NCBI RefSeq assembly: GCF_019679435.2
Contig: NZ_CP139781.1
Span: forward strand, 434,001 to 498,000
Length of the DNA: 64,000 bases
Source: Actomonas aquatica
Lineage (GTDB): Bacteria; Verrucomicrobiota; Verrucomicrobiia; Opitutales; Opitutaceae
Direction: 5' to 3'
In this document: piece by piece, positions 23,274 to 47,198 of the stretch
How the letters are laid out: each line of letters starts with the position of its first letter
How positions within the stretch are numbered: position 1 is the first letter of the stretch
Notes under the pieces: model-generated
What the model saw: only the letters and a program-made list of their open reading frames with translations
Databases searched by the model: none
Told to the model about the DNA's origin: nothing
Position numbers and translations under genes: made by a program

Positions 23274-23360
23274 AGCAGTAGCGAGTAGATGGTAGTGAGT
23301 AGCGAGTAGGTAGAGCGGCAGCATAGGCTACTCGCTACTCTCTACTCGATGCTCGCTACT
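23274..23360. repeat. Inverted arrays of 7-base repeats (gene-free element)
   Basis: The gap between hisF and the next gene is a hairpin-forming repeat. The left arm reads as heptamers AGCAGTA, GCGAGTA, GATGGTA, GTGAGTA, GCGAGTA (23274-23308). The right arm reads CTACTCG, CTACTCT, CTACTCG, ATGCTCG, CTACT (23328-23360). The arms are complementary over 18 bases with one mismatch (23292-23309 with 23328-23345). It fills nearly the entire 89-base gap. The same 7-base design in inverted orientation frames the four-helix-bundle gene at 44730-45168, with a different heptamer. Confidence 0.8.
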
Positions 23361-40962: not shown

Positions 40963-43053
40963 TCAGCGAATGTCGCACATCCAGCGGCCCTTGATCCGTT
41001 TGAACCACAGGTAGTTTTCACCGCCGTTGGTGCGTTGGGTCATCACGAGGACCATGTCGGGGTTTTCGACGCGTTGACCGGTGATGGTGCGCGAGGCCTC
41101 AAACAAGCGCGCGAGGTCCTCGCGCGGGTAGCGCCAGTTGAGGTAGGCGCGGAAGGTGCCGCTAGGGTCGTCGATGGCGTCGGCTTCGGTGTAGTCGGCG
41201 TCCGGGATGTTGTTGCGGAAGTTACGGCAGTAGTTGAGCAGGGTCTCGTCGGTCAGGTGGGCAGCCACCCAGGACCAGTCCTGCGCGGCGACGGCGTCGG
41301 CGATGGCGTAGTAGCAATCCTGCGCGGTGGCCGGTTCAGGACGGGGGGCACGGGCTAATGAGGCTGGCGGAGACGAGGGCGGCGGAGAGGCGGTGCGGCC
41401 GACGGCCTGGATGGTGCGCAGCACCTCGGCGAAATGTTGCTCGGCCATCGCGTTCTGCGATTCCGGCGCGGTGAAACTGATGGTGCCGACGTAGTCGTTG
41501 GGCAGGTCGAGCACGAGGAAGCGGAAGTGCTGGGGCTCGCCCCCGCGGTTGAGGGTGAAGTGCAGTTGATGCGTCTTCATGCCGTTGAGGGTGGTGCTGT
41601 GCTGGCTGACCATACTCGCGGCAGAGGAGTTGTTGACCTGGCCCACCAGATCGTCGCGGACGGAGTCGACCGTGTTGCCGGCGTTACGGAACATGGATTG
41701 GAGAACCATCACGATTTTGGGGCCGGTGATGTTTGGATCGGCCCACTGCGTTTGGCCCTCGGAACGCTGCGCGAGTTGGAAGGACTTGGGTTTGTTGAAC
41801 TCGTAGCCGGCGTCGTCCACGACGAGCGCTTCGTAGGCGCCGCTCGGGGGCACCGACGAAATGGCGGTGGGCGGCGGGTCGCCCCAGCCGGTGCCGGTCG
41901 CTGCGGATGCGGGGGGCGGTGAACCCCAGCCATTGTTGGCGGAAGCCGTTGAGGGCGATGAGGGTGTGGTGGGCGGTGAGGTGGGTGATCCCCAACCGTC
42001 GTTGGCCGGTGGCGTGTGGGAAGGCGTGGCGGAAGTGGTCGGCACGGGAGGGGCTGCAGCCCCGCCGGCGACGCTCAGGATGGCTTGCCGCATGGCGGGA
42101 CCGGCACTGTCCCGGCCGAGTTCGGCGAAGTAGCCGTATGCGAGCACGAGAGATTGGCCGTCGGTGACGCCGAGGATCATGAGTTCAGCGGCCTGGTCGC
42201 CCAGTTTGCCGCCGTAGCGCTTGAAGAGCACATTGGTATTGCCGGTGCGGTTGGGGGAGCGTTCGCGCTCGTGCCAGCCGGGGCCGAAACTCGACTCTAC
42301 TTGGGTGAGGGTTTGGTCGAGGAAGGCGGGCGCGTCTCCGACTTGGCCGCTCACGTCCAACCAGGTGAGTTCCAGCGCTGCGCCTTTGTCAGGCAGGTTG
42401 AAAGCGAGGCCGGGTTGTTGGCAGGCTTGGGCAGGAGTCCAACCGGGGGGCGGCACAAATGAATAACTCGTTTGGCCGATGGGTTGGCGGCCGCCGGAGG
42501 ACGCGGCGCGGCTTGACGGTGGTGCGGCGGAGTGCGGGGCCTGGAGACTGAGGAGGGCGCGCTCAAACTCCGGCGCGCTGACGGCGGTGTCGATGGAGTG
42601 GAGGATGAAGCCTTGGTTGGCGTCGGCGTAAAACACGGCCTGCACGCGAATTTGCATGCCGTCTGCAAAACTCTGGTAGCGGCGGTAGGTGCAGGAACGT
42701 CCGGCGACCGTGCGCATGTTTTCGGTCTGCAGATTCAGGCTTCCGAGGGCCTGCTGCATCTGGGCCTCGTAGTCGGCGATGAAGTCGGTCGCGGATCCAC
42801 CGCCGGGGCGACGGACGACTTGTATGGTGCCGTTGCCATCGGGGCGATCCGCCTGGAGCAAGATATCGGGGGCGCCGGCCGGGCGATGGACGTTGAAGGT
42901 GTCGGGGACCTCGAGTTGGTAGCCGGTGTCGGCGATCGAGGCGGTCTTGGCGACGAGCTGCCCGGGCAGGGCGAAAGCGATCAGGCCAAGGGTGAGCAAA
43001 AGCGACGACGTCGTCGCGGCGACGTTGAGTCGGGCAAACGGGGGTATGGACAT
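40963..43053 (-). CDS. Uncharacterised exported protein with three related PsbP/DcrB-like domains
   Basis: 696 residues with a signal peptide (LLLTLGLIAFALPGQLVA). Three similar domains of about 135 residues occur at 41-172, 192-328 and 410-551. Each has a central aromatic strand, a segment like HSIDTAV / LMILGVTDGQ / FRFLVLDLPND and a terminal helix ending in L(R)..I/LQA, as in DcrB/PsbP-like (DUF1795) folds. Between the second and third lies a linker with WGSP, WGSP and WGDP repeats (354-393). The C-terminal 120 residues resemble an NTF2-like domain. It is the first gene of the operon, with 12 bases to the next gene. Confidence 0.65.
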   Translation of the reverse strand: MSIPPFARLNVAATTSSLLLTLGLIAFALPGQLVAKTASIADTGYQLEVPDTFNVHRPAGAPDILLQADRPDGNGTIQVVRRPGGGSATDFIADYEAQMQQALGSLNLQTENMRTVAGRSCTYRRYQSFADGMQIRVQAVFYADANQGFILHSIDTAVSAPEFERALLSLQAPHSAAPPSSRAASSGGRQPIGQTSYSFVPPPGWTPAQACQQPGLAFNLPDKGAALELTWLDVSGQVGDAPAFLDQTLTQVESSFGPGWHERERSPNRTGNTNVLFKRYGGKLGDQAAELMILGVTDGQSLVLAYGYFAELGRDSAGPAMRQAILSVAGGAAAPPVPTTSATPSHTPPANDGWGSPTSPPTTPSSPSTASANNGWGSPPPASAATGTGWGDPPPTAISSVPPSGAYEALVVDDAGYEFNKPKSFQLAQRSEGQTQWADPNITGPKIVMVLQSMFRNAGNTVDSVRDDLVGQVNNSSAASMVSQHSTTLNGMKTHQLHFTLNRGGEPQHFRFLVLDLPNDYVGTISFTAPESQNAMAEQHFAEVLRTIQAVGRTASPPPSSPPASLARAPRPEPATAQDCYYAIADAVAAQDWSWVAAHLTDETLLNYCRNFRNNIPDADYTEADAIDDPSGTFRAYLNWRYPREDLARLFEASRTITGQRVENPDMVLVMTQRTNGGENYLWFKRIKGRWMCDIR

Positions 43054-43304
43054 GGCGGGGCTCCTTTCACTGTTCCGATCTCGCGACGCGGGACCGTGCG
43101 CCGGAACAGGGTTTGGGAGCGCCTCGAAAGGCCGCCGTCAGGCACGTCGCAAACCTATGGCGAACGCGTAGTGAGGCCAAGCCTCGCGTCTGCGCATATC
43201 TTGCCTAAAGACATGCATATGAGGGGAATAGGTCCGAATGGATGGGGCCGCGAGGTGGGTGGCGCCGGCGGGACCGGGTCACCCCGGCGGTTGCCGCCGC
43301 CGAC
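43054..43304. other. Leader region of the unknown operon
   Basis: This 251-base stretch between the histidine kinase gene and the 696-residue gene should hold the minus-strand promoter of the four-gene operon. I see no convincing -35/-10 pair, only an A/T-richer patch around 43196-43230. No RNA gene or coding frame was supported. Confidence 0.4.
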
Positions 43305-44720
43305 TCAGGCCGGTAGACGCAGGACGGCGATGCAGCCTTCGGTGTCCTCGCGGTTCTTGAGGTAGAGTTCGCCTTCGTGGTTTTCGGCGATTTGGCGGCA
43401 GAGCACGAGGCCGATGCCTGAGCCGGTGGCCTTGGTGGTGTAGAACGGCACGAAGAGGTTGGTGGCTTTGGAAATGCCGTGGCCGCTGTCGGTCACACGG
43501 AACTCGATGAAGCGTTCGGTCTGCTCCCAGGTCACACTCACGGCACCGGCTGGCAGCGGCGGAGGCGGCGGCTTGGCGGCGGCGTCGCCCTCGAAGCCGT
43601 CGTCGTCATCATCGGTGTCGGGCTGCTGGTGTTCGAGGGTGGCTTCGACGGCGTTTTTGATGAGGTTGATGAGCACCTGCTCGATTTGCGGACCGTCGCA
43701 GGGCACGGTGATGTCGGGGCCGTCGATCACTTCGACGGGCAGGCGCAGCTCGAGCTTCACGACTTGGCGCACGAGCGGTTTCACCTCGCAGGGCGACTTC
43801 ACCGGTTTGGGCAATTTGGCGAGGCGGGAGTAGGCCTGCATGAAACGGCTGAGGCCCTCGGCGCGTTTGCCGATGATTTCCAGACCGCCGCGCAGATCGT
43901 CCTCCCAGTCGTCGGCGCGTTGTTCGCGTTTGAGCATGCTGCCGAGGCTGCCGGCGATGGATTTGATGGGGGCGAGGGAGTTGTTGAGCTCGTGGCCGAG
44001 GACGCGCACGAGGCGTTGCCAGGCTTTCAATTCTTCCTCGCGCAGAGCTTCGCTGAGGTCGGCGACGACGACCAGTTCGTGGGGCAGGCCGCCCTCACGG
44101 AACTGGGTGCGGCGCATGCCCCAGCGGCCGGTGCCGCCCGGAAATACGGTGTGTTGCAGGACGCCGTTGGGCGGAGCTTCGACGCATTCGCCGAGCCCGA
44201 TATCGTGGGCCGAGCGGCCGAGAATGCGTTCGGCGGGCGAGGCGAGGAGCTCCTGGCCGGAGCGGTTGACGAGACGCAGGATGCCGTCGCCGTCGAAGGC
44301 GAAGATGGCGACGTCGATTTCCTCCATGACGGTGCGCAGGAGTGCGGTGGCCTCCATGGCGCCGAGGCGTTGGGCGCGAAGGATGGAGCCGAGGAAATTG
44401 ATCTCGGTCATGACGTCGCCCATCGGGTTCTCGCGATTGGCCCCGCGGGCGCGGATGGAGAAGTCGCCCTCGCGCAGCGCCGAGAGCAGGTTGGCCATGG
44501 TTTGCAGGGAGCGCACCACGCGGTTCTGCACGGAGAGCGCGAAACCTAGCCACACGCCGAGAATGAGCAGGGTGAGCGTCCACTGCACCTTGGGCTCCTG
44601 ATCGCCGGCGAGCCACAGGTGATACATGGATACCACCACCGCCGGCGCCCCGCCAAGAAACACGCCGAGCAAGACGTGTTGATCGTGGGTGAAGCGGCTA
44701 CGTTTGTGGGGGGAGGGCAT
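43305..44720 (-). CDS. Sensor histidine kinase, NtrY-like
   Basis: Membrane sensor kinase of 471 residues with two N-terminal membrane segments (about 15-37 and 47-65), a HAMP-like region (70-115), a PAS domain (about 125-225) and the kinase core. The phospho-histidine is His243 in VLGHELNNSLAPIKS, the N box reads LINLIKNAVEA, and the G boxes are DSGHGI and GSGIGLVL. An unusual Asp-run plus Pro-run linker (QPDTDDDDD to PPPPPLP) sits between the N and G1 boxes. It pairs with the sigma-54 response regulator at 45180-46541, from which it is separated by the four-helix-bundle gene. Confidence 0.92.
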   Translation of the reverse strand: MPSPHKRSRFTHDQHVLLGVFLGGAPAVVVSMYHLWLAGDQEPKVQWTLTLLILGVWLGFALSVQNRVVRSLQTMANLLSALREGDFSIRARGANRENPMGDVMTEINFLGSILRAQRLGAMEATALLRTVMEEIDVAIFAFDGDGILRLVNRSGQELLASPAERILGRSAHDIGLGECVEAPPNGVLQHTVFPGGTGRWGMRRTQFREGGLPHELVVVADLSEALREEELKAWQRLVRVLGHELNNSLAPIKSIAGSLGSMLKREQRADDWEDDLRGGLEIIGKRAEGLSRFMQAYSRLAKLPKPVKSPCEVKPLVRQVVKLELRLPVEVIDGPDITVPCDGPQIEQVLINLIKNAVEATLEHQQPDTDDDDDGFEGDAAAKPPPPPLPAGAVSVTWEQTERFIEFRVTDSGHGISKATNLFVPFYTTKATGSGIGLVLCRQIAENHEGELYLKNREDTEGCIAVLRLPA

Positions 44721-44729
44721 ACTTTGTGA

Positions 44730-44762
44730 AGCTATCAGTGATCAGCTTTCAGCATTCAGCTG
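44730..44762. repeat. Left 7-base repeat array of the four-helix-bundle cassette
   Basis: Read on the minus strand it consists of CTGAATG, CTGAAAG, CTGATCA and CTGATAG, a tandem of 7-base units with CTGA constant. It is inverted relative to the array at 45141-45168 and matches it at 24 of 32 positions. It covers the last codon region of the small gene and ends 9 bases before the start codon of the histidine kinase. Confidence 0.75.
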
Positions 44763-45127
44763 TTGTCGCTAGACGCGGGGCGCAGGCGGCGGAAGAGTGA
44801 ACCGAGCATGCGTTTGATTTGCCCGACTTCGTCGGCGAGTGACTCATGTGCACCAGCTTCGAGGAAGCCTAGGTCACGGGCGAGGAGTAGGTGGTATTCA
44901 GTTTCGCTGGCGGATCCGTGGGAGATCTCAACGTAGCGCGCCAATTCGGCGTCGGAGTGGCGTCCGCAACCTTCGGCGAGATTAGCCGGAATCGACGCCG
45001 CGGATCGACGCAACTGAGAGGTGAGACCAAAACGTTCGTCGTTGGGGAAGCACTGGGAGGCCCGGTAGACGGCGAGCACCAAGTCGTGACTACGTCGCCA
45101 AACCTCAAGATCCCGATAGTCCTTCAA
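44756..45127 (-). CDS. Four-helix-bundle protein, 23S rRNA intervening-sequence (S23) type
   Basis: 123-residue protein of the S23/TIGR02436 family, which was first known from insertions in 23S rRNA genes and also includes relatives of the accessory protein of diversity-generating retroelements. The family hallmarks are LEVWRRSHDLVLAVY, FGLTSQLRRSAASIPANLAEG and LLLARDLGFL. The start is TTG (45125-45127), with GAGGAA (45133-45138) at 5 bases spacing; no ATG is available. It stands outside rRNA, between a response regulator and its kinase, and is framed by inverted arrays of 7-base repeats. Confidence 0.9.
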   Translation of the reverse strand: MKDYRDLEVWRRSHDLVLAVYRASQCFPNDERFGLTSQLRRSAASIPANLAEGCGRHSDAELARYVEISHGSASETEYHLLLARDLGFLEAGAHESLADEVGQIKRMLGSLFRRLRPASSDNS

Positions 45128-45140
45128 CGTGGTTCCTCAG

Positions 45141-45168
45141 AGCTGATAGCTGAATACTGATCGCTGAG
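45141..45168. repeat. Right 7-base repeat array of the four-helix-bundle cassette
   Basis: On the plus strand it reads CTGATAG, CTGAATA, CTGATCG, CTGA, again 7-base units with CTGA constant, in inverted orientation to the left array. It lies just upstream of the Shine-Dalgarno motif of the small gene and 11 bases downstream of the response regulator stop. Confidence 0.75.
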
Positions 45169-45179
45169 TGCCGTGGGCC

Positions 45180-46541
<1,362 letters not shown>

Positions 46542-46621
46542 GGTGCGATAGTGACCGTGGAGGAGGGAGGCGTGTCAAGCGGTGCGGTGTGCGCTCCGCG
46601 GGTTTCGATGAGGGTGGTGGC

Positions 46622-46948
46622 TCAGGCGCGGGCGACGGCGCGGCGGGTGCGACGATGACGAGCGGTCCAGGAGACCGGGGTTTCGGCGGTGACAGCGCTC
46701 GGCTTGGCGGCGGTGAAGACCTCGTCGGCCGGCAGCAGGATGGCTTTGGCGCGACGCGGCTCATAACCGCGGGATGCGGCGGAGTAGTCTTCGCGGAAGG
46801 TCGAGACGAGCAGGCCGAAAACAAAGGTAGCGAACGGCACGGCGTAAGGCAGCGGCGAGGAGACGGTGCCGCCGGCGACTTCAAAGGTGGCCGTGGCCAC
46901 CAAGGCAGCGACGGAGAGGAGAGTGGTGTAGTTGAGCAAGTTTTTCAT
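46622..46948 (-). CDS. Small uncharacterised membrane protein
   Basis: 108 residues with two likely membrane helices (about 9-26 and 36-51) and a basic C-terminal tail (RHRRTRRAVARA). No family was recognised. The 250-base region upstream is shared with the divergent glpK. Confidence 0.6.
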   Translation of the reverse strand: MKNLLNYTTLLSVAALVATATFEVAGGTVSSPLPYAVPFATFVFGLLVSTFREDYSAASRGYEPRRAKAILLPADEVFTAAKPSAVTAETPVSWTARHRRTRRAVARA

Positions 46949-47198
46949 GATTCAAAAGAAAAGTTGCCCATTCCATTGCACTGCGTGTGCCAAGTTACGT
47001 GGAGAGTTGTTAGATGCAGGATAGCAAAGAGATAGGGTTTTGGGGCTATTTCTTGGTAATCTCATTTGCGGAAAGATGAGGCGGGCGCGGGAACCAATAT
47101 TCCCATTTTCGGAACAGTAGAGGATTGCCACACAGGCTTCACAAAAAAGGGACTGCGCCGCTGCGCGGAATCGGTCCAATATCGGCAACAACCCCACC

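Follow-up and report, generated by a model that had tools for sequence, protein, structure and literature searches.

The small S23-family gene lodged between a response regulator and its sensor kinase in Actomonas aquatica appears to belong to an old element of the IVS kind that lies outside rRNA, in which inverted arrays of 7-nt units would serve as functional ends read by the S23 protein; we give this interpretation a probability of about 0.6. The three genes lie on the minus strand of the window (the whole 64,000-nt stretch that was analyzed). Along that strand, profile matches identify an NtrC-type sigma-54 response regulator (RR) as the upstream neighbor (45180-46541; Response_reg, Sigma54_activat, and HTH_8), followed by the S23 gene (44756-45127) and, downstream, a sensor histidine kinase (HK; 43305-44720; HATPase_c and PAS), in agreement with the first-pass annotation, which had placed an S23-type gene between the two members of a two-component pair. 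The S23 gene, the cargo of the cassette, starts with TTG and encodes a four-helix-bundle protein of 123 aa that matches PF05635 (126.6 bits, cut-off 33.8) and TIGR02436 (124.1 bits, cut-off 24) in profile searches. Its nearest solved structures are 2gsc (E 2.9e-22; five chains) and 2rld, and S23 relatives with a solved structure form a four-helix-bundle pentamer (PMC4990558). Avd of diversity-generating retroelements is also a four-helix-bundle relative of S23, and the Avd model scored 20.7 bits against the protein, below its cut-off of 80. The regulator-side array (45142-45169), which is the 5′ array of the S23 transcript, consists of four TCAGCNN units, with a spacing of 10 nt to the regulator stop and 14 nt to the S23 start. 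The kinase-side array (44733-44760), the 3′ one in the transcript, consists of four inverted units, GCTGANN, that read as NNTCAGY x4 on the plus strand. The S23 stop codon falls within the kinase-side array, and 12 nt, or 9 nt with the initial AGC at 44730 included, separate this array from the kinase ATG; the earlier description of arrays that reach the last S23 codons and end 9 bases from the kinase start is therefore accurate. The inverted 7-base arrays at both gene ends were likewise recovered. Their constant part had been given as CTGA, and TCAG/CTGA is indeed present, but the fuller core is TCAGC with two free letters, and this is one of many locus-specific units.

The closest described counterpart is the IVS in the 23S rRNA of Coxiella burnetii, which carries an S23 ORF of the same family, three to four GACAGAT heptamers at its 5′ side, and a 28-bp terminal stem (PMC4990558). 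The ends are complementary in both elements, and the 28-bp stem corresponds to the length of four heptamers; the A. aquatica element is situated between protein-coding genes, whereas the Coxiella IVS is situated in rRNA. At 43000-47000, no rRNA family was matched, and an Rfam search gave nothing relevant. S23 is the sole gene between the arrays, and no transposase is present within the cassette, as the cassette proposal had stated. In the multi-copy genomes examined, no S23 pairs with at least 78% DNA identity and differing flanks were found, so cassette mobility is historical on present evidence. The element is placed with the IVS kind because its protein belongs to the S23 family and its ends are complementary around the S23 ORF, while it lies between RR and HK genes instead of inside a 23S rRNA gene and shows neither of the transposon features looked for, namely a transposase and near-identical copies at different sites. 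The Coxiella heptamers were reported for one species without generalization and are the sole report of S23 with repeat ends that we found in the open-access literature (PMC4990558); a description of S23 genes as generally carrying inverted heptamer arrays was not found in the open-access literature searched.

Inverted heptamer-array caps are the rule for S23 genes wherever they are placed in the genome. Self-match at lags of 3-15 was scored in the 130-nt flanks for 84 S23 genes, which came from Verrucomicrobiota and no fewer than eight further phyla (the named loci belong to Pseudomonadota, Nitrospirota, SAR324, Acidobacteriota, Planctomycetota, Chloroflexota, Bacteroidota, and Gemmatimonadota), and the 99th percentile of shuffles was taken as the threshold for an array. 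The lag-7 score reached 13.96 and 15.60 in the two flanks, followed by the harmonic lag 14, as against 3.4-3.6 in the lag-7 controls and about 3.1-4.7 over shuffles, gene interiors, remote flanks, and every lag except 7 and 14 taken together, and 86.9% of the genes had an array at one or both ends. When 58 S23 loci of multi-copy genomes were sampled in turn, a few of them common to the first sample, lag 7 scored 12.17/12.17 versus 3.49, and 83% of these loci had an array. Arrays were absent from eight proteins below the S23 cut-off (most of 170-245 aa), and lag 7 stayed at background in GxxExxY genes. Each 5′ flank matches its own inverted 3′ flank with a score of 16.9, compared with 8.4 for the 3′ flank of another locus and 9.0 in direct orientation, and arm similarity is 0.73 within loci versus 0.47 between loci. 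The unit itself varies by locus (TCAGCNN, AGTTGAN, GGAGTCA, ATGGGTN, AGTGGCT, AGTTATC, GAGCTTN, and others), with a polarity of AG in 54 of 62 5′ units and CT in 56 of 65 3′ units, and the median number of units per arm is 4.6 and 4.4. A second S23 gene of the A. aquatica genome (L004; G000:C1:2713222) lies between inverted GGATTTT/CGATTTT arrays, a unit unlike TCAGCNN. The first-pass annotation had named two outcomes that would count against it, relatives that all keep the gene without arrays and other S23 genes that lack such ends; instead, relatives vary in S23 presence and other S23 genes are array-capped.

Comparison of the junction across relatives revealed that the pair is kept at 30 loci in 30 genomes of the family, where 31 to 655 bp separate the regulator from the kinase, and kinase orthologues at 57-78% identity occur in 29 genomes of the family. 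S23 occupies the RR-HK gap in G000 (A. aquatica), G003, G006, G040, G047, G071, G073, G074, and G096. The closest named locus, L151 of an Opitutaceae MAG, has the same order RR-S23-HK and a regulator that is 90.5% identical. Within the genus, a series is observed at the junction: G000 is intact, G090 has a truncated S23 with both arrays, and G020 has one array. S23-less junctions in sister species, which the first-pass annotation had proposed to look for, are provided by G020 and by G064, where no clear array is left; G025 and G023 have short clean regulator-kinase gaps. The empty sites are too diverged from the filled sites to fix the element ends, and no target-site duplication could be delimited. 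The junction S23 proteins from several genera form one clade (support 94/94 in a tree including L151 and L061), which indicates that the insertion was most likely ancestral and that sister species have since lost S23, repeatedly, as judged from these sequences. A first tree had put the A. aquatica S23 apart, and independent insertions at the junction were considered; adding L151 and L061 gave the single clade, and the idea was rejected. The junction clade uses the cores TCAGC, TAAGC, or TAGGC; some loci combine cores, and both arms carry the matching core type in nearly every locus, indicating that the arms change together. Other occupants of the same gap were noted: in G095, G015, and G027 (L051, L062, and L065), a GxxExxY-like ORF lies between inverted GCCGCAAAAAGGCGC-type arrays, and in L042 and L064, the gap holds gene-less ACACGGAT arrays. 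The RR-HK gap looks like a repeated insertion site.

Array units co-vary with S23 proteins. The more alike two S23 proteins are, the more similar their units (Mantel r 0.35, permutation maximum 0.10), and for cross-phylum pairs, none of 999 permutations was as high as the observed correlation. Relatives of the A. aquatica S23 at 50-69% identity from other phyla mostly have TCAGC, TCAGT, TTAGC, or CTAGC units; S23s of the same taxonomic family at 35-43% identity have other units. This co-variation may be attributed to co-inheritance of the protein and the arrays as one element, and direct recognition would explain it equally well.

Arrays are also found away from S23 genes. In the whole 6.1-Mb one-contig genome of A. 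aquatica, TCAG(NNNTCAG)3 gave 34 matches and the control, the pattern reversed, gave 0, which puts the arrays far beyond chance; TCAG arrays occur at about 24 genome sites, only one of which has an S23 gene. The spacer letters are near random (3.68 of 4 bits, with all 16 dinucleotides present), and adjacent spacers are identical in 8 of 62 cases (5.7 expected), around a constant core, a pattern that speaks against an origin by simple slippage. The core alone is common to the arrays, and they are thus not copies of one conserved palindrome, which would characterize REP or BIME sequences. Close gene-less pairs, five of which occur in the A. aquatica genome, run TCAGC then GCTGA, identical in polarity to the cassette, and this order was counted by eye in 13 of 13 pairs from A. 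aquatica, G040, G065, and G074. One gene-less inverted heptamer pair (positions 1501-1569 of L016; G000:C1:2521750) is inserted in frame in an interdomain linker of metH, a gene named from its own sequence; in the sister species G020, the linker of the metH orthologue is shorter, unrelated in sequence, and free of the heptamer pair. Rickettsia palindromic elements and MITEs are small gene-less palindromic inserts that sometimes lie in frame inside genes. The metH insert resembles them in being gene-less, palindromic, and in-frame; S23-type arms are short-core arrays with free spacers, whereas Rickettsia elements and MITEs are copies of one sequence. The median number of TMRGC arrays is 19 in genomes with S23 at the RR-HK junction versus 1 otherwise (p 0.0014, uncorrected for kinship). 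G065 has 21 TMRGC array matches, yet no S23 match, which indicates that arrays do not need a resident S23. Within the window, a further gene-less inverted pair, AGTAGCG/GCTACTC (23277-23309 and 23327-23360), lies between an apparent hisF and a gene for 627 aa, and the same unit caps S23 in L088 and L089 from other genera. In G094 (L247-L276), a genome without an S23 match, about 89 near-uniform TCAGGTY matches occur with pairs in the opposite orientation; these look like a separate, REP-like family and were set aside. The TAACTGA arrays of Beggiatoaceae, Cyanobacteria, and Bacteroidetes have been described as direct repeats that probably act as translational signals (MacGregor 2015, PMC4679880). 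They are dispersed intergenic heptamers that have the TCAG core in common with the present arrays (complement TCAGTTA); unlike S23 arrays, they have no S23 link and almost no reported inverted pairs (PMC4679880).

Several other explanations of the cassette were considered. According to one, which we regard as unlikely, the cassette is an IVS of mRNA: the arrays would pair around the S23 ORF in the polycistronic transcript and be cut by RNase III, separating the regulator and kinase messages. When the 451-nt cassette transcript is folded to its MFE structure, the 5′ array pairs almost completely with the 3′ array, and RNA duplexes between a locus's own arms are stronger than those between mismatched loci in 76 of 84 cases (-59.2 versus -42.3 kcal/mol); in addition, the terminal stem of the Coxiella IVS, with its heptamers 5′ of the S23p ORF, is cut by RNase III (PMC4990558). 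However, arm mismatches show no G-U bias (91 of G-U type and 128 of A-C type), which lends no support to selection on such a stem in the sense RNA. Moreover, the neighbors are co-directional in 42 of 79 cassettes, compared with 63% of control adjacent gene pairs, so many cassettes are not operon-internal; on these counts, insertion into operons only was rejected as a rule. It is also doubtful that the cassette is a regulatory module kept by the host, in which S23 would regulate the translation or transcription of its own operon with the arrays as the operator. S23 is retained at the same site across genera, and dN/dS is 0.01-0.09 in most close same-site orthologue pairs; S23 is thus under strong purifying selection, which would fit a host function too. 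In G121 and G201, the S23 genes have decayed but the arrays next to them are intact. On the other hand, S23 is frequently lost while its neighbors are unchanged, the neighbors are unrelated (RR/HK, an isomerase/kinase sugar pair, and others), and gene-less arrays lie inside metH.

The growth of ordinary short tandem repeats by slippage beside the gene is very improbable: some loci do contain runs of perfect units (e.g., ten or more GGAGAGT copies), but the arms are inverted and locus-specific, and the A. aquatica spacers are near random as described above. Hardly any credence can be given to a recent, strain-specific insertion between regulator and kinase, for which the absence of S23 from the junctions of G020 and G064 could be cited, because the single junction clade spans several genera, G020 retains a solo array, and G090 retains a truncated S23 between two arrays. 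The cassette idea of the first-pass annotation is therefore partly supported, being correct in its broad lines and too narrow: the gene and its arrays do form one unit, but a fresh or strain-specific insertion does not agree with one junction clade across genera, and S23 genes in general have such arrays at their ends.

The preferred reading, an IVS-like element outside rRNA, would work as follows. The element would be a stand-alone relative of the 23S rRNA IVS, consisting of an S23 gene between inverted arrays of about four to five heptamers, and its arrival at the regulator-kinase junction would date to an ancestor within the family, with inheritance and repeated loss thereafter. The arrays would act as its functional ends: as the unit sequence drifts, the two arms go on matching one another and the S23 lineage, and gene-less pairs could insert elsewhere. 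The combination of a five-subunit ring (2gsc) with arms of four to five units suggests that, on a single strand, each unit takes one subunit; the S23 ring, which is pentameric in the relative of known structure, may thus bind single-stranded nucleic acid at its own array, about one subunit to each heptamer. Such reading of the array by S23 would control the element or would once have mobilized it. TRAP is a ring protein that reads spaced NAG repeats. The likeness to TRAP extends to the ring, short core units, free two- to three-base spacers, and AG in the unit; there is no homology between TRAP and S23, and the analogy is one of mechanism only.

A comparable arrangement was observed for GxxExxY (TIGR04256) genes of the same taxonomic family (L206-L235), which have inverted arrays with the core CAC[AG]GAG and a period of about 9; the lag-9 scores of their flanks are 7.1/7.2 versus 3.85 for shuffled sequences, and their arms score 19.6 versus 9.4 for mismatched arms. 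Tentatively, S23 cassettes could be part of a bacteria-wide class of minimal elements, rRNA IVSs included, that pair a small protein with inverted arrays of fixed period and whose gene-less derivatives insert into genes; within such a class, the period would be 7 nt for S23, read by a pentameric ring, and about 9 nt for GxxExxY. S23/IVP genes are spread across bacteria without a known function, and the period-7 inverted end signature, which accompanies the protein across phyla, gives the S23 family its first testable partner, the array. The signature may connect the rRNA IVSs with orphan S23 genes and with the unexplained heptamer arrays of several phyla, and the question of how IVSs move or act becomes directly testable.
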